Of a stretch of 37,351 nucleotides of DNA, positions 1 to 6,789 are shown piece by piece. Each line of letters starts with the position of its first letter. The first letter of the stretch is position 1. Position numbers and translations under genes: made by a program. Origin of the DNA: Thauera linaloolentis 47Lol = DSM 12138 (GTDB lineage: Bacteria; Pseudomonadota; Gammaproteobacteria; Burkholderiales; Rhodocyclaceae); NCBI RefSeq assembly GCF_000310205.1, contig NZ_AMXE01000034.1, positions 1-37,351 of the forward strand. The letters run 5' to 3'. The notes under the pieces are model-generated. The model searched no databases, was not told the origin of the DNA, and saw only the letters and a program-made list of their open reading frames with translations.

Positions 1-32
1 GCTGGTGGCCGCCAGTGGAGAGTGGTCAGGCA

Positions 33-1025
33 TCAAGGCGTGATGGTGCCGCTGACTTTGCTGCCGCCGAAGGCTGCGTCAGGCAGCGTGCCATTGGTAT
101 ACATGCCGGCCAAAGCTTCAGCGCCATTGTAGAACCGGCCCTCAATCGTGCTGCCGTTGCTGAAGAAACCTGTGTTATCGATGGTCGTGCTAGCGAAGCT
201 GATGGTATGAGTTACACCGCCCACGACACGACTGATGCTGTTGTTGGTGGAACCTGCACCGATAGTGCCTGAGCCACTTACGTAAGAAACATCCAGTTTG
301 CCTTTGTACAGGTTCAGATTGTCCGGCAGACCGCCGGGCAACGTATTGCCATTGGCATTGGTACCGGTCTGGCTGATACCGATCACACCATAGGTGGCAT
401 TGATTGCCGTTGGCATGTTGGAAACCGCATTATCACCCACGTACCAAACGGTCCGGTCGTTGCTGGCCATGTTCAGGTTGGTGCCCACCGGGTCGCTGTT
501 TACCTTGGGCGCCCATTCTCCGAAGTACACACCGCTGCCCACGGCCAGCAAGGTGGGATTGGCAGCAGGAGCGCCAGAAGTGTTGGCCGCCACCTGCCCA
601 ATGACCAGGCCGCCGAACGCAGGCGCGGGTATCAGCGGCGGGAAGGACTGGATCTGGCGGATGCTGTTGACGGCGAAATTGGCGTATTGGTTATTGGAGG
701 TGCCATTCACCGAAGCGGTATCCTTCCAAACTTGGGCAATGTTCGGCCAACTGATGATGCCGCCGATGACATGCTTCGGCCGAAGGAAACCGCCATTTCC
801 CTGTTCGGCGATCGCGGCATTCGAACCACGAATCGGGCCGTCGGCGATATCGATATAGCCATAGATATCGTTGTTCAGCCGCAGGCCGGAGTTGCCCGTG
901 TTAAAAAGAAAGTGATTTGAGGTACCCACCTGTACGCCGGGGCCAGAGCTGTCGCCCGCAGCAGCTTGTGCAACATTGGTCCCCATTGCGGCTATTACGG
1001 CCAAAGCCAGAATCGACTTTTTCAT
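33..1025 (-). CDS. Secreted hemophilin-like (Slam-dependent type) heme-binding protein
   Basis: This is a 330-residue exported protein. It starts with a clean signal peptide (MKKSILALAVIAAMG, cleavage after AQA near residue 21) and has no cysteine, so it is neither a lipoprotein nor disulfide-bonded. The C-terminal part is Gly/Asn/Thr-rich and ends with FYNGAEALAGMY...DAAFGGSKV, which resembles the last strands of the 8-stranded barrel shared by TbpB-like and hemophilin (HphA) proteins. YFGEW and VWYVGDN in the middle also fit that family. Hemophilins are exported by Slam (DUF560) outer-membrane proteins and deliver heme to a TonB receptor; the receptor gene lies 60 bp upstream on the same strand. 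His38 and His85 are possible heme ligands (inference). The start has a GAGGA ribosome site 7 nt upstream. The gene is clearly less GC-rich (about 55% in a sampled line) than the housekeeping genes, which suggests transfer. No Slam gene is in the window; it could lie left of position 1. Confidence 0.62.
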   Translation of the reverse strand: MKKSILALAVIAAMGTNVAQAAAGDSSGPGVQVGTSNHFLFNTGNSGLRLNNDIYGYIDIADGPIRGSNAAIAEQGNGGFLRPKHVIGGIISWPNIAQVWKDTASVNGTSNNQYANFAVNSIRQIQSFPPLIPAPAFGGLVIGQVAANTSGAPAANPTLLAVGSGVYFGEWAPKVNSDPVGTNLNMASNDRTVWYVGDNAVSNMPTAINATYGVIGISQTGTNANGNTLPGGLPDNLNLYKGKLDVSYVSGSGTIGAGSTNNSISRVVGGVTHTISFASTTIDNTGFFSNGSTIEGRFYNGAEALAGMYTNGTLPDAAFGGSKVSGTITP

Positions 1026-1056
1026 TTCTGCTTCCTCATATCGAGATTGATGAAAT

Positions 1057-1078
1057 CTGGTTTTTTACAAAAAACCAG
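1057..1078 (-). repeat. Perfect inverted repeat between receptor and hemophilin-like genes
   Basis: CTGGTTTTTT and AAAAAACCAG form two perfect 10-base arms separated by two bases. The repeat lies in the 60-bp gap between the receptor stop codon (1086) and the hemophilin-like start (1025). In the minus-strand transcript it would form a hairpin upstream of the hemophilin ribosome site. It could be an mRNA processing or stability element, or a partial terminator that sets the receptor-to-hemophore ratio. Its function is inferred only. Confidence 0.55.
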
Positions 1079-1085
1079 CAAAAAA

Positions 1086-4000
1086 CTAGAAATTGATCGT
1101 CAGGCCCGCACTCAGCGTACGCCCTGGCGCAGGCAGCAATACTTTCGACATGGGGTCGAGATAGTATTCGTCCGTCAGGTTGGTGACGCTCAGATTCAGG
1201 GACATCTGCTTGTTCAGGTTGAAGTTGGCATACAAGTCATGCAGCAGAACCGATTTCCAATAGAAAGAACTCATGCCCTGGCTCCTGTACCACACGTCCT
1301 TGGGCAGCCAGGTCGTGAAGCCTGCGCCGGCTTGCGAGGCCAGCAGTTTGTCCAGTTCCTTGTTTTCCGCCCCGGCGTGATAGACGCTGCGCCAGCCCAG
1401 TTCCAGCTTGTTGCTGAGCAGGCGGGCGCCGAGCAGCAGGTCGATACTGTATTTGGGTTGCAGGCTGTTGCCGCTGTATGTGCCGTTGAAGCCGCCGGTC
1501 ATGCAAGTGGGGATGCGGTTGTAGTAGGGGTCCATGGCGGAGGCGTAATCCTTGTCGCAGGTTTCCTGCTTCAAGCGCCAGGTCGCGCCCAGGCTGCCGA
1601 AATAACGTCCGCTGTCGAAGCGGGATTGCAGTTCGAGGCCGCGGGTTTTCTTCCTGTCGAACTGGATGGTTTCCAGGTCCCAGGTTCTGTCGATGAAATC
1701 CTTGATCTCGGTGTTGAAATAGCTGAAGCGCACATCTGCAAGGTGCATCTCGGGGAAGAACTGGCGCAGATCATGGGCATAGCCCAGTTCCCAGTTGGTA
1801 TTGCGCTCCGGCTTGCTGGCGCCATTGATGGCGAAGTTGGCCTCGGTGCCGGCCCAACTGGAGGTGGAGGTCAGTTCGTGCAGGCTGGGGAAGCGGGTGG
1901 TCTGGGCGTAGCGCACGAAGGCGGTGCCGAAGGGGGTGATCCTGGCGGTGGCGCTCAGCACCGGGCTGAAAGCTTCGCCGGACTGATCTTCCGGTATTTC
2001 CCAAGCCTTGCCGGCATCCAGCCTTTCGTAAGCCACCTCGCCGAACACATTGTGCTTGTATTTGGCGACGAGGGTACCGGGGTTGTTGGGGTCATCCACC
2101 ATTTCGGTGGCATCCAGTTCGCCGTTGGCAAAGGGGTTCTGCGATGAATCGAACTTGCCGTCCTTGCTGGGCACGAGCACATTGCTTACCAGGTGGGTGT
2201 TTGATGCATAGGCGGCGCAGTCTGGTCTCGGCTGACTATTGAGGCAGCCACCACTAGGAAAAGCCAGAACACCGCCACTTATCACAGATGCCAATGCCAC
2301 TTCCTGTGCTTGTGCGCCGGAGAAGTGAATATTGGCTATGCGCAAGAAAGGGTTTGAATTATGCTCGCTGAGAAAATCGAGGAAGCGCTGCGCACTTGCC
2401 CTGAGCTGGGGGTCTGTAGGCACATATCGATTCGTGGAAGGCACCCATCCACCGCCCGTTGTATAGGAATACGTATCCACGCTCGTGAAAATGCCTGGGG
2501 CGCTCCAGTCGATGGCATTGCTCGTAGCAATCACTTCTTGGCGCAGACGGTCGTACTCGGCCTTGACCTCTGACGTCATCAGCGTCTGATATTGCAATTC
2601 CAGACCCGCAATACGCTGGTTTGCCGCATTGAACGCATTTTTCTGGCGGCGCAGTTTTGCCAGCCCGGTATCCTTGCCTTTGTAACGCATGTAGCGGGTG
2701 CCGGCGGTCAGCGTCAGCCAGCCCGTGGGCTGCCAGGCGAGATTCATCATGGCCGACCATTCCTTGCGTTCGCCGGTGCGCGGCCCGAGCAAGTCCGTCG
2801 TTTTATGCACGCCGGCCAGGCCGCCGAACATTGGCATCTCCTTGACGCTTGCTTCTACCTTGTCGTCGAGTTTTTCTTTCTGCCAACTGCCGCCGAAGGT
2901 CATTTGCAGCTTGTCCGTCAGGCGCATCAGGTTGCTGAACTCGAAGCCTGTGCGGTCATGCTTGGTCCATTGCCTGCCGGCCCCGACGATCGTGCCGTCG
3001 TGCACACCCAAGGGTTCAAACATCGGCCCCATGACTGGGTCGTCGAAAATCCACGCCATGTCTCTCTTCAAGGTGTCGTAGGTTTCCAGGTTCCGGTATT
3101 CCTGAGTGCCTTCCAGAATGGCGAGGCCGTAGGGATGCGCGCCGGTCTGGTAGCGCAGGCCGGTGGTCTTGGTATGCCAGAGGCTGGTTTCCAGATTCAG
3201 CCATCTGGAGTCCTCAGGTTTGAGGTCGTAACTCAGTTTGTAACTGTCGATCTTCATTTCCGACCGGGGCCGTTCGCTCACCATGCGCGGATACTGCGAC
3301 CAGTCGTAGTCGGGGTTGGCTTGTTCGAACCCTTCTCTCAGCGCCCAGTTCAGCAAGGTGTTACCGGGTGTGGTTTCGCCGAAGGCCATGTCGGTGCGCA
3401 TGAACTGAAAGCCGATTTTCTGTTGATTGGGCAGATACCAGTTGTTTTTCAACAGCGTGGTTTCGATCTCGCTGTCGGTGTTGAATACCTCGTCACCACC
3501 ATGGTAGAGCTTGGTCAGGTTCGGGAAATGTATGTCGGTGCTGCTCTTGTCATAGGGGTCGTGCCCCGAGTACCGGCTGGCATTGCTTTTCCCTGAGTAG
3601 TAGTTGCCTTGTTCGCGCCGGCTGTATGAAGCCAGGAAATCGGTGTATTCATTACGCCCCGCGATTGCGATCATGCCGGAATGATCATCAAAATTGAGAA
3701 GCTCTCCGTTGCCTTTGTTGCGGGGATCCTGGTCGGAGAAATACACTTCATTCACGTTCGTTCTGACTGCGCCGGGTATGTCCTTGTAATCCTTGCCATA
3801 GAACGAACCGGGGTCGTTTCGTGGCTTCTTGGTATTGCTCGCGGCTTTCAGATTGACCTCGATGCCCCAGTTTTCACCTTCGGGGATGAGGTCCTCTGGC
3901 TCGATGGTGCGGATGCTCACTGCTCCGCCGACACCGCTTTTGACTCCCCGGCTCAGCGACGGGCCTTTTTCCACTTCGACGCTTCTGAACAGTGCCGGGT

Positions 4001-4691
4001 CGACATAGCTGCGGTTACCGGCGCCAAACTGATGCAGCCACACATTGGTGGATTGTTCGGTGCCATCGATGGTCAGCGGCGTGCGTCCTTCGCCACTGAT
4101 GCCGCGGATGTTGGGCGTGATCGCCTGGCTGCTGCGGGTGTCCATGCTGTAGACGCCGTTCATGCCCTTGAATACGTCGCCGGGGTTGGTGGTCTGGAAG
4201 CGCTGCAACTGCTCACGGTCCTGATAAACGCTGATGACGTTCTCCAGGTAGACCTTGTCATGCCCCACCTCGTCCTTGGTGCGTTCGCCGGTGACGGTTA
4301 TCTGTGTCAGTTGCGTGGCCGGGTCCGCGGTTGCAGCGGTCCGCGACAGCGTGACGTTGGTGCCCGTGCGGCGGAAGCTCACGCCGGTGCCGGACAGAAG
4401 ACGGCGCAGGGCTTCGTCGGGCGAAAGGGAGCCGCTGACCGCGGGAGCCTCGTAGCCCGCCACGGTTTCCTGCGAGAAGAACAGTTGCAGTCCGGCTTGC
4501 TTGCCCAGTTGCAGCAGCGCCTGCCCTAGTGGCTGTGGGGAGATGCTGATGGAGACCGGCGCCTCCTGTGCCCATGCGGTTTGCGGCAGCGCGCCGATGG
4601 CGGCGGCGACCGAAAGCGCCAGGGAGGTCATGCACAGCCGGAGGGCGGGTGCTGGTCTGGGTGTGGTGGGTGCGTTCTTTCTTCTGCTCAT
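1086..4691 (-). CDS. TonB-dependent heme/hemoprotein receptor with STN signalling domain
   Basis: This is a 1201-residue outer-membrane transporter. After a signal peptide (cleavage near AWA-QE, residue 41) comes an STN domain (about 43-115), which contacts a FecR-type protein and transmits ligand binding. A TonB-box-like ITVTGE and a plug follow (about 130-270, with PNIRGISGEGRTPLTIDG and VEVEKGPS), then a long barrel ending in NLTDEYY...GLTINF with a terminal Phe. The style is that of hemoglobin/transferrin/lactoferrin-type receptors. It is longer than most (700-1000 residues), because of an extra stretch around residues 675-865, encoded at about 2090-2660, where local GC drops. The start at 4691 (MSRRKN) was chosen because it precedes the signal peptide directly; an in-frame ATG at 4805 would add an unlikely Arg/Pro-rich tail. 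The order sigma-FecR-receptor-hemophilin suggests that the hemophilin-like protein is its ligand carrier. Confidence 0.88.
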   Translation of the reverse strand: MSRRKNAPTTPRPAPALRLCMTSLALSVAAAIGALPQTAWAQEAPVSISISPQPLGQALLQLGKQAGLQLFFSQETVAGYEAPAVSGSLSPDEALRRLLSGTGVSFRRTGTNVTLSRTAATADPATQLTQITVTGERTKDEVGHDKVYLENVISVYQDREQLQRFQTTNPGDVFKGMNGVYSMDTRSSQAITPNIRGISGEGRTPLTIDGTEQSTNVWLHQFGAGNRSYVDPALFRSVEVEKGPSLSRGVKSGVGGAVSIRTIEPEDLIPEGENWGIEVNLKAASNTKKPRNDPGSFYGKDYKDIPGAVRTNVNEVYFSDQDPRNKGNGELLNFDDHSGMIAIAGRNEYTDFLASYSRREQGNYYSGKSNASRYSGHDPYDKSSTDIHFPNLTKLYHGGDEVFNTDSEIETTLLKNNWYLPNQQKIGFQFMRTDMAFGETTPGNTLLNWALREGFEQANPDYDWSQYPRMVSERPRSEMKIDSYKLSYDLKPEDSRWLNLETSLWHTKTTGLRYQTGAHPYGLAILEGTQEYRNLETYDTLKRDMAWIFDDPVMGPMFEPLGVHDGTIVGAGRQWTKHDRTGFEFSNLMRLTDKLQMTFGGSWQKEKLDDKVEASVKEMPMFGGLAGVHKTTDLLGPRTGERKEWSAMMNLAWQPTGWLTLTAGTRYMRYKGKDTGLAKLRRQKNAFNAANQRIAGLELQYQTLMTSEVKAEYDRLRQEVIATSNAIDWSAPGIFTSVDTYSYTTGGGWVPSTNRYVPTDPQLRASAQRFLDFLSEHNSNPFLRIANIHFSGAQAQEVALASVISGGVLAFPSGGCLNSQPRPDCAAYASNTHLVSNVLVPSKDGKFDSSQNPFANGELDATEMVDDPNNPGTLVAKYKHNVFGEVAYERLDAGKAWEIPEDQSGEAFSPVLSATARITPFGTAFVRYAQTTRFPSLHELTSTSSWAGTEANFAINGASKPERNTNWELGYAHDLRQFFPEMHLADVRFSYFNTEIKDFIDRTWDLETIQFDRKKTRGLELQSRFDSGRYFGSLGATWRLKQETCDKDYASAMDPYYNRIPTCMTGGFNGTYSGNSLQPKYSIDLLLGARLLSNKLELGWRSVYHAGAENKELDKLLASQAGAGFTTWLPKDVWYRSQGMSSFYWKSVLLHDLYANFNLNKQMSLNLSVTNLTDEYYLDPMSKVLLPAPGRTLSAGLTINF

Positions 4692-4806
4692 GTCTTCGTG
4701 ATGTCGTGTCTGGCGGTGGTGGGGGGCGCGTCCGCGCGGCCTGCTTCGGCGCGGAATCGTAGCCTGGCGTGCGGGGGATGGCCCCGTAAAGAGAACTGCC
4801 CCCAAC

Positions 4807-4834
4807 CTATAGACGTATGAGCGGCAGGATTTCC
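4807..4834 (-). promoter_or_regulatory. Possible ECF-sigma promoter of the receptor gene
   Basis: On the minus strand GGAAAT (4834-4829) is followed after 13 bases by CGTCTATAG (4815-4807), a pattern like ECF-type -35 (GGAA) and -10 (CGTC/TATA) elements. The spacing is one or two bases short of the usual value. It lies in the 238-bp gap between fecR and the receptor gene, where a FecI-type sigma factor is expected to act. Confidence 0.35.
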
Positions 4835-4838
4835 GGAA

Positions 4839-4853
4839 TGAAAATACGAATCA
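4839..4853. promoter_or_regulatory. Fur-box-like dyad upstream of the receptor gene
   Basis: Read on the minus strand, TGATTCG-T-ATTTTCA matches the 7-1-7 Fur consensus TGATAAT-n-ATTATCA at 10 or 11 of 14 positions. It sits just upstream of the candidate -35 element in an AT-rich patch (4838-4866). Iron repression through Fur would suit the receptor and hemophilin-like genes. Confidence 0.45.
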
Positions 4854-4929
4854 TTTATGAAAATCGTTGCGGATCAGGGGCTTGCATTGCCCGCCCGAGC
4901 CTGCGCTGTGGCAGCGGAGGCGGGGGGCG

Positions 4930-6003
4930 CTATCGCGGCAGAATGCGTATCTGCCCGTCTGCCTGCCGATGCACACTGACCGGGGCGAAGTCGGGCAGCA
5001 TCTCGAGCATGGCTTCCGGCTTGCCGCTGCGAACGATGCCCGAGATGCGGTGGCTGCGCAGCGCCGTGTCGTCGAGGTGGACGGGGTGCGGCAGGTAGCG
5101 GTTGAGTTCTTCCAGCGCCAGGGCCAGGGGCGTGTCATCGAATATGATGTCGCCGCGCTGCCAGGCGGCGATGTTCGTCACGTCGACCGTGCGGATGCCT
5201 TCGGGCGCCGCGTCATGGTAGGCCGTCACCGCTTGCCCCGCGGCCAGGCGGCGGGTGCGCCGGTTCCACCAGCGGCCGCCGGAGACTTCCACCGAGCCGG
5301 ATTCCACGGCAACCTGGACCGCTGAATCGGTGCGTGACACGTTGAAGCGTGTTCCGGTCACGGTGATCTCGGTGGAGCCTGCATCGATGATGAAGGGGCT
5401 CCGCGTACTGCGTGCGACCGAAAAGAAGACCTCGCCGCGCCGCAGTTCGACGGTCCGCCTGCCTTCGTAAAGGCGGGCGATGGCCAGGGTGTCGGTATTG
5501 GCGCGCAGGATGGAGCCGTCCGGCAGCGCCAGCTCTTGATGCTCTCCGCGCCTGGTCTGCAGGTGGTAGGTTTCGAGCGGCTCATCGAACAGCCCCTGGC
5601 GGTGCAGCACGCCCATGACCAGCACGCTGGAACAGGCGCCTACCAGCCCGAGGCCGAAGGCGCGCCGCGACAGCCGCCGGTGCTGCTGCGGCGTGGCGGG
5701 GTGTGCGTCCTGTTTGAGGATGGCCCGCAGCGCCTGCGCCGACAGGTGCTGCGCCGCGCCGGAGATTCGACAGACGTTGCGGTATTGCCGGTCGTGCTCC
5801 GGGTCGGCTTGCCGCCATTGTTCGAACAGGCGGAGATCGGCTTTGCTTACCGTGCCGGAATGCAGGCGAACGAACCAGTCTGCGGCGGCATCACAGGGGC
5901 TGGCGTGTTCGGATGGTCTGGGGTCTGTGTTCATTGCAGGGGAGAAGAACGGTTGCTTGGTGTGGGAGGCCCGGTTTGCGCATCCAGCATGCGCTGGCGC
6001 CAT
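4930..6003 (-). CDS. FecR-type anti-sigma factor / signal transducer
   Basis: This inner-membrane regulator would pass the receptor signal to the ECF sigma factor. The N-terminal cytoplasmic part has the DUF4880 signature AADWFVRLHSG and FEQWRQADPEHDRQY. A single membrane segment follows, preceded by SRRAFGLGLVG, which resembles a twin-arginine motif. Next come the FecR domain (LALPDGSILRANTDT, VELRRGEVFFSV) and a C-terminal STN-like domain (ALEELNRYL, ISGIVRSG) that would meet the receptor STN domain. Start choice is uncertain: the ATG at 6003 has AGG at good spacing, while the family normally begins near MNTDPRPSEH (5934), which lacks a Shine-Dalgarno. It lies 47 bp downstream of the sigma gene. 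Confidence 0.86.
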   Translation of the reverse strand: MAPAHAGCANRASHTKQPFFSPAMNTDPRPSEHASPCDAAADWFVRLHSGTVSKADLRLFEQWRQADPEHDRQYRNVCRISGAAQHLSAQALRAILKQDAHPATPQQHRRLSRRAFGLGLVGACSSVLVMGVLHRQGLFDEPLETYHLQTRRGEHQELALPDGSILRANTDTLAIARLYEGRRTVELRRGEVFFSVARSTRSPFIIDAGSTEITVTGTRFNVSRTDSAVQVAVESGSVEVSGGRWWNRRTRRLAAGQAVTAYHDAAPEGIRTVDVTNIAAWQRGDIIFDDTPLALALEELNRYLPHPVHLDDTALRSHRISGIVRSGKPEAMLEMLPDFAPVSVHRQADGQIRILPR

Positions 6004-6050
6004 CCCCATACCTGTTAGACGAATGGCGACGGGAAATGCCGGAACGCGTG

Positions 6051-6551
6051 CTAGGCATAGTGCTGCAACCGGTTGTTGAGGTGGCGGACGGCCCGCGTCA
6101 TGTGTTTTTCCACCATGTCGGTGGAAATGCCCAGCGCCCGCGCGATTTCGGCATGCGTGCAGCCTTCGATCCGATGGTGGATGTAGACTTGCCGGCAGAC
6201 CAGCGGGAGTTCTTCGAGCGCGCTTTGGAGGTCGGCGAGCAGCTTGCTCGAATGCGCTTCGGCCTCGGGGCCGGGCAGCTCGGAGACGGCGTGGTCGTCG
6301 AGCTCATCCAGCGGAATGCTGGGAAACGCCGTCTGGTGCCGGTGCTTGTCGATCTTGTGGTTTTGTATGCTGCGCTTCAGGTATGCGGCCGGGTTGGCCA
6401 CTTTGCCGACGCCGGCTTCGAGCATGCGCAGCACCGCGTCCTGAAGGGCGTCCAGCGCGTCGTCGTCGGCGTCCGGCTTGCGCCGCCAGCCGCCAATGAG
6501 CTCACTGTAGTTCGCGAGCCAGCCTTTCTTCGACAGGGGGCGATGAGTCAT
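6051..6551 (-). CDS. ECF sigma factor, FecI-like
   Basis: This 166-residue extracytoplasmic-function sigma factor has a region 2 (ALQDAVLRMLEA...NPAAYLKRSIQNHKID) and a region 4 helix-turn-helix (CTHAEIARALGISTDMVEKHMTRAVRHL is the span; key residues are H-AEIA-ALG-S-DMVEKH). The size and the KHMTRA helix are typical of FecI-type iron-starvation sigma factors. It is the first gene of the minus-strand block sigma-fecR-receptor-hemophilin, and is expected to be held by the adjacent FecR protein and released when the receptor binds its ligand. Upstream (6552-6789) is a less GC-rich patch around 6595-6650 that probably holds its promoter; I could not define a convincing -35/-10 pair. Confidence 0.9.
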   Translation of the reverse strand: MTHRPLSKKGWLANYSELIGGWRRKPDADDDALDALQDAVLRMLEAGVGKVANPAAYLKRSIQNHKIDKHRHQTAFPSIPLDELDDHAVSELPGPEAEAHSSKLLADLQSALEELPLVCRQVYIHHRIEGCTHAEIARALGISTDMVEKHMTRAVRHLNNRLQHYA

Positions 6552-6789
6552 GGCGGGGGTATTGCCGCAGGCGGCGCCTGGCTGGGTGAATGAGACCTAT
6601 TACTATTCCGTAGGAACCCGATTCTACACTTGATGGTAGTCAAGTCCCGAAACGCGCAGGCCCGCTCCTGACCACACGCCACCCTCACGCAACTGCAATG
6701 GCGGGGCAGCCCTGCGGGGGCGCTTCAGGCGGGCGCGTACCAAGGCCGCGCTGCGGATCGGTGGCGGCACCCGCCCGGTCGGCATCGCG

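Follow-up and report, generated by a model that had tools for sequence, protein, structure and literature searches.

Introduction

Three described systems lie closest to the locus reported here (papers are named by PMC number and cited for the passages concerned). The hemO cluster of Acinetobacter baumannii is listed as an extracytoplasmic function (ECF) sigma factor, an anti-sigma factor, hphR, hphA, hsmA (the Slam gene), a TonB-like gene and a heme oxygenase (PMC10483418); export of HphA by Slam and its capture of heme were shown in this species, and an hphR mutant made less HphA, a result for which the authors warn of polar effects (PMC8560813) and which would fit either receptor signalling or such an effect. 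The has operon is ordered hasI-hasS-hasR-hasA-hasDE-hasB (PMC9249621), and the Xenorhabdus hrp system, a type XI secretion system (T11SS; TXISS-1B), comprises a receptor, a soluble single-barrel cargo and a DUF560 exporter (PMC8406197). In this literature, hemophilins have been studied as uptake proteins of host-associated bacteria. Here we analyze a stretch of 37,351 nucleotides from Thauera linaloolentis 47Lol = DSM 12138 (hereafter the window; contig C34, NZ_AMXE01000034.1, from base 1, in a 220-contig genome), the left end of which encodes a sigma factor, a FecR-type regulator, a receptor with an STN domain and a hemophilin-like secreted protein.

We read this run, with a probability of roughly 0.78, as a Fur-controlled surface-signalling hemophore operon in the order sigma, FecR, STN receptor, hemophilin and, beyond the end of the contig, Slam. 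Such an operon very probably makes a secreted heme-catching protein, a receptor that retrieves the heme and a switch that signals from the surface to the cytoplasm. The reading is carried by the genes, their predicted folds and their order, by the Slam gene of an orthologous locus together with Slam ends at contig edges, and by the joint gain and loss of the STN domain and the sigma/FecR pair.

Results

Open reading frames and Pfam matches placed the four genes in a single run on the minus strand of the window, given below with the elements around it (Sel9 is Thauera sp. Sel9, of the same genus; aa, amino acids).

6589 to 6607, minus strand: Fur-like box upstream of the sigma gene (consensus score, shuffles, conservation in Sel9)
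6051 to 6551, minus strand: ECF (FecI-type) sigma factor, 166 aa (Pfam Sigma70_r4_2, 1.8e-15; NCBIfam PRK12527, 1.7e-31, below cut-off)
4930 to 6009, minus strand: FecR-type anti-sigma regulator, 359 aa (Pfam FecR, 1.7e-20; DUF4880, 1.4e-15)
4806 to 4844, minus strand: weak candidate for a sigma-dependent promoter block, largely common to the Sel9 orthologue by eye
1086 to 4691, minus strand: TonB-dependent heme-type receptor, 1201 aa from ATG (N-terminal STN, plug, barrel)
33 to 1025, minus strand: hemophilin-like secreted protein, 330 aa, no cysteine (NCBIfam, fold, profile)
1 to 34, minus strand: start of the hemophore-Slam intergenic RNA element, truncated where the contig stops (match to model R1)

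On the sigma protein the FecI models of NCBIfam score more weakly than PRK12527, and the FecR protein matches PRK09774 FecR at 2.4e-24, below the cut-off. The domain matches lie well outside what chance would give. The receptor frame can be read as 1239 aa from a TTG (1086-4805) or, with the ATG at 4691 as start, as 1201 aa. The original prediction, made from the letters of this DNA, had described the same four genes on one strand in this order, a 1201-residue STN receptor, a secreted protein free of cysteine and a betaproteobacterial host, and it was right on each: the ATG start gives the predicted receptor length with STN at 3.7e-11, zero cysteines were counted in the 330 residues, and the host shares its genus with Sel9, Thauera being betaproteobacterial.

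The Fur-like box agrees with a Fur consensus at 15 of 19 positions, two free ones included, a score reached by none of 300 mononucleotide shuffles, and the identical 19 bases stand upstream of the Sel9 sigma orthologue. Across 18 scanned upstream regions, the window's among them, 14 hold a box equalled by at most 1 of 300 shuffles. Weaker boxes were found at locus L048 (equalled by 4 of 300), at contig C32 of the window's genome (13) and at locus L044 (13), and the scan found no Fur-like box upstream of the Sel9 cassette C2b (294 of 300).

The secreted protein matched no Pfam family up to E 1. It begins, by eye, with a probable signal-peptidase-I signal sequence, and its residues 165-323 match NCBIfam NF041636, 'Slam-dependent surface lipoprotein' (E 7.8e-17). 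Its AlphaFold2 model (predicted local distance difference test, pLDDT, 89.6; predicted TM-score 0.88) has the hemophilin architecture of an N-terminal clamp or handle and a C-terminal eight-stranded barrel. In a Foldseek search of the PDB, six chains matched this model at E <= 0.001, every one a hemophilin, from A. baumannii, Haemophilus haemolyticus and Haemophilus parainfluenzae, with TM-scores of 0.42-0.62 by target length. A profile of 30 relatives searched against PDB sequences likewise found five hemophilin-type chains at E 6e-20 to 3e-14, including 8glo (6.4e-20), 7re4 (8e-18) and 6om5 (2.5e-15). By its predicted fold, the protein is a hemophilin; the structural comparison thus bore out the hemophilin likeness originally proposed, since nothing else in the PDB matched at that E-value.

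The receptor shows STN (3.7e-11), Plug (3.7e-13) and TonB-dependent barrel (5e-25) domains in Pfam, and its best NCBIfam match is TIGR01785, TonB-hemin (5.8e-71). Its nearest solved relative is HasR (E 1.2e-35, over STN and plug), and its plug histidine H258 (numbered in the 1239-aa frame) aligns with H189 of HasR, which together with H603 we take to hold heme. In the hemophore, H38 may correspond to H43 of HphA. To follow both residues, we drew on 59 loci from named records in which hemophore relatives occur, collected with their neighbours mapped, and tabulated 43 hemophore-receptor pairs, 20 loci without a strong pair being excluded, as were L040 and L030 (by the distance rule or for lack of a receptor). 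H38 and H258 are invariant together in 15 of 15 pairs of the window's clade, and both are absent from the other 28, counting L054, whose receptor is missing at that column. Heme binding by the hemophore would be consistent with this pattern, and Hpl has been described as using a single histidine (PMC8560813).

Several points weigh against our reading. At 62 bits, the NF041636 match falls short of the curated cut-off (80), and the receptor's heme-family score is likewise below its own. The hemophilin matches are sure by E-value, and the superposition itself is loose (TM-score 0.33-0.50 by query length, root-mean-square deviation 6.4-12.1). HasR H603 has no match in the receptor. The HphA histidine pair (H43, H106) is not present as such, for H106 has no counterpart, phenylalanine standing at the 'PxH' site of the hemophilin alignment. 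The 15 histidine pairs form one supported clade and so amount to one evolutionary event rather than fifteen. A paralogous hemophore on contig C46 has no histidine at all and yet keeps the fold (pLDDT 87.3; 7 of its 12 matches at E <= 0.001 are hemophilins, ranked first), and a homologue of HemS was looked for and is absent.

The alternative that survives best takes up several of these points: the same machine for export, uptake and signalling would carry another metal chelate, a tetrapyrrole or a corrinoid. The absence of H106 from the family, the 28 of 43 pairs without either clade-specific histidine, the C46 paralogue and the presence of a cobalt receptor protein, CrpC, among T11SS cargo (PMC12282271) all suit such a cargo, and clades lacking H38 and H258 may bind heme otherwise, or something else. 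We nonetheless consider it unlikely for the window, whose clade retains H38 together with a receptor histidine aligned to HasR H189, and whose receptor has HasR as nearest solved relative and a heme family as best NCBIfam match.

A genome-wide Pfam search found two heme oxygenase genes in the window's genome, on contigs C134 and C151, and none on C34, C46, C9 or C32, so that the in-cluster arrangement of hemO is not seen here. On C134 (L105:2-4949), the heme oxygenase gene follows a further receptor of the heme type, which matches TIGR01785 at 3.3e-65 (below cut-off). Judged by eye, the N-terminus of this receptor resembles STN, and an ExbB-like gene comes after the heme oxygenase.

In our view, it is the comparison of loci that gives the strongest evidence for a circuit made up of these genes. 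The window unites an ECF sigma gene, a FecR gene and an STN receptor in one gene run, as FecIR- and Has-type systems do. Among the mapped loci, receptor, hemophore and Slam are the common core, and a sigma/FecR pair directly upstream is the exception. An STN domain was found in all 10 receptors adjoining sigma/FecR (the window's and nine others) and in 2 of 44 without such neighbours (Fisher p 2.8e-9, ignoring kinship). This count leaves out receptors cut by a contig end (L032, L050) or broken (L054), the second tandem receptor of L044, two loci (L023, L077) where sigma/FecR are present but either no hemophore was hit or the receptor is divergent and 2.3 kb off, loci without a receptor hit (L030, L069, L071-L073, L076, L081) and the duplicate Sel9 records L024, L053 and L065; the sigma gene of L045 was detected only in a looser scan.

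To account for kinship, we used a tree of 57 receptors that excludes the STN region, being built from their C-terminal 950 residues. In this tree the second L044 receptor was labelled as having sigma/FecR, and L032 and L050, for which the upstream DNA is missing, as lacking it. Sigma/FecR changed at least nine times on this tree, seven changes being forced by well-supported branches, and the labels cluster no more than shuffled ones (86 of 500 as low). Across the 7 independent contrasts on supported branches, STN went the same way in 6.5 on average and the opposite way in none (median p 0.031, range 0.016-0.063). The has-like sigma/anti-sigma wiring originally proposed therefore gained support on two sides, from the HasR match and from STN and sigma/FecR varying together across independent lineages.

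Were sigma and FecR mere neighbours of an operon that is under Fur and senses no ligand, the absence of the pair from most mapped receptor-hemophore-Slam loci would come as no surprise. Two receptors, L043 and one of L031, also carry STN without sigma/FecR within the fetched stretches, and at the FecIR-like hemin locus of Stenotrophomonas maltophilia KJ the HemI operon was reported not to be autoregulated, in a strain whose receptor is truncated (PMC12772443). The tracking of sigma/FecR by STN in independent lineages is not expected without a shared task, and we hold this alternative to be improbable.

Two further arrangements were observed. In a Rhodocyclaceae metagenome-assembled genome (L044:3637-19068), a single sigma/FecR pair precedes two receptor-hemophore pairs in tandem and one Slam gene. 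On Sel9 contig C33 (L023), sigma, FecR, a distant receptor and a distant Slam relative occur without a hemophilin hit, possibly a signalling-coupled Slam with another cargo.

The original prediction had pointed to the region left of position 1 as the place to look for a Slam gene. One complete SlipAM gene was found in the window's genome, on contig C4, with its own receptor and hemophore. In Sel9, a Slam gene (SlipAM match) follows the orthologous hemophore after 157 bases, at a locus syntenic with the window (89.9% identity over 4.5 kb of flank). In the window's own genome, contigs C9 and C32 each have a Slam 3' end exactly at one edge; these ends comprise 48 residues each, are 92% identical to the Sel9 Slam and agree with each other at 146 of 147 bases. 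The first 74 bases of the window are an exact repeat with a second copy at the end of C46. The hemophore edges of C34 and C46 thus have exactly 74 bases in common, and the Slam edges of C9 and C32 likewise share a stretch of exactly 74 bases, which suggests that an identical repeat halted the assembly. The sequence of C32 runs on as at the Sel9 locus (86% over 2.6 kb), and the likely order is therefore C34-Slam-C32, leaving C46-Slam-C9 by elimination.

Because Slam follows the Sel9 orthologue and two Slam 3' ends lie at contig edges, a Slam gene very probably stands directly left of position 1, adjacent to the hemophore as observed in Sel9 and, for the window's genome, by linkage; the expected exporter is thus represented by a full gene on C4 and, on this evidence, by another copy just beyond the contig end. 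That the window's hemophore is served by the distant C4 Slam alone is very improbable, for although C4 holds the sole full Slam gene found in the assembly, that gene has a receptor and hemophore of its own and is 39% identical to the Sel9 Slam, against 92% for the contig-edge ends.

Between hemophore and Slam, 11 loci share a 126-139-base element with three hairpins, one of which is listed here with its extent.

L009:8753-8884, minus strand: three-hairpin RNA, with 10 further loci and the partial copy at window positions 1-34

These loci come from Thauera, Thiopseudomonas, Pseudomonas, Halopseudomonas, Stutzerimonas, Marinobacter, Neptuniibacter and a metagenome bin. The first hairpin is nearly invariant in sequence. 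In the alignment, 97% of cells pair, compared with 33-47% when the alignment is slid, and both sides have changed in 12 of 42 pairs (shuffled mean 4.2; none of 500 as high), a count favoured by the structure having been derived from the same alignment. On one of five measures, that of further pair types, 10 of 500 shuffles did as well. Positions 1-34 of the window match positions 1-34 of the resulting model R1 (E 3.3e-4, cut at the 3' side) and are identical to the end of C46; weaker matches occur at the same place in additional loci, and Sel9 C2b, which lacks the hemophore, has one ahead of its broken Slam. A search of R1 against 369 genomes of the class found none, the search being weak enough to miss the window's own truncated copies as well; hemophore relatives occur in only 2 of 369 genomes, apparently the same class sample, one being the window's own.

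Other identities for the element were set aside. A known family was rejected: an Rfam 15 search with the RNA from two loci gave two matches each, all far below gathering scores. A dispersed repeat was rejected as well, exact or one-mismatch copies occurring only at hemophore loci in the 12 genomes, of 17 searched, that have the element; six two-mismatch hits elsewhere, one each in 6 of the 17, look like chance because a reversed-pattern control also matched in 4. Nor is it a small coding gene, as lengths of 126-139 bases keep no frame. As a plain guess, the RNA could control dosage or be a processing or stabilizing element.

The hemophore family is sporadic, occurring in 2 of 29 genomes of the genus (the window's own included) and, more widely in the family and order, in none of another 32 genomes. 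A search of 72,556 plasmid records gave two matches, both gonococcal and, at 2.17 million bases, chromosome-sized. Where present, the genes can be multiple: the window's genome has three hemophores, two with their own sigma/FecR, and an additional sigma/FecR/receptor set without a hemophore hit on C32. In Sel9, two hemophore cassettes with sigma/FecR, C2a and C11, carry Slam genes 93% identical in DNA next to diverged partners (sigma 48%, FecR 53%, receptor 57%, hemophore 55%), for which gene conversion of Slam would be the simplest reading. The C32 receptor (L022:2019-5696) shares 86% DNA identity with the Sel9 C2b receptor over its first ~285 residues (STN and plug); past these only short or weaker matches to C2b remain, and its body groups with Neisseria receptors, a pattern that points to a probable barrel swap behind a retained signalling end. 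A second Sel9 cassette with sigma, FecR and an STN receptor (L009:429-1907) was also seen, with no hemophore hit and with its Slam split into two frames.

Discussion

The operon we propose would work as follows. Under iron limitation, Fur would release the sigma gene, as the box suggests; the hemophilin would leave the cell via Sec and cross the outer membrane through Slam, as homology and gene order indicate, catch heme and pass it to the receptor. Heme at the receptor, whether alone or together with the hemophore, would then shift the STN domain; FecR would in turn free the sigma factor for action, and the cell would produce receptor, hemophore and Slam in quantity. Heme as the ligand, signalling and autoregulation are the parts of this scheme that we infer.

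New here are the near-identical Slam genes beside diverged hemophores and the RNA of three hairpins that separates hemophore from Slam and shows compensatory changes. We tentatively suggest, at rather less than even odds, a cassette of interchangeable blocks, in which the signalling unit is gained or lost whole, receptor and hemophore diverge, one converted Slam serves several hemophores, and the RNA sets the dose of exporter or answers a cellular signal.

Hemophilins in Thauera and its relatives appear wired to a ligand-sensing switch that has joined or left one common core several times, which permits a clean comparison between related receptors that have STN and sigma/FecR and others that lack them. 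With an RNA lying between cargo and exporter comes the question of how a mass-secreted protein is balanced against its outer-membrane exporter, and near-identical Slam genes beside hemophores about half identical form a natural experiment on the part of the cargo that Slam recognizes.

Compared with the described systems, the fresh parts are the RNA element and the block-wise evolution, the gene order itself being already known. In A. baumannii, these five genes already stand in this order in the hemO cluster (PMC10483418), and the hemophore fold is the same, so the novelty of the pairing is weaker than the original prediction stated; what stands of that claim is that we found no study of signalling in a hemophilin system, hemO included, in the open-licence PMC literature. 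The words sigma and FecR are also absent from the main text of two T11SS cargo surveys (PMC12282271, PMC8406197). The locus differs from hemO in that the window's contig has no heme oxygenase (the genome's copies lying on C134 and C151; the TonB-like gene was not searched for) and in that HphA H106 is not conserved in its hemophore family. It differs further in its several paralogous copies per genome and its conserved intergenic RNA, a comparison in which Acinetobacter is known here by its published gene list only.

With Xenorhabdus hrp, the window's system shares a receptor, a soluble single-barrel cargo and a DUF560 exporter (PMC8406197). The Xenorhabdus loci differ in having no sigma/FecR hit in the fetched stretches, no STN in their receptors and the receptor, where found, downstream of Slam. 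Serratia marcescens has, lastly, shows the same succession of sigma factor, anti-sigma factor, STN heme receptor, hemophore and exporter (PMC9249621), and the N-terminus of the window's receptor is homologous to HasR; the window's system differs in that a hemophilin fold takes the place of HasA and Slam that of the HasDE exporter.

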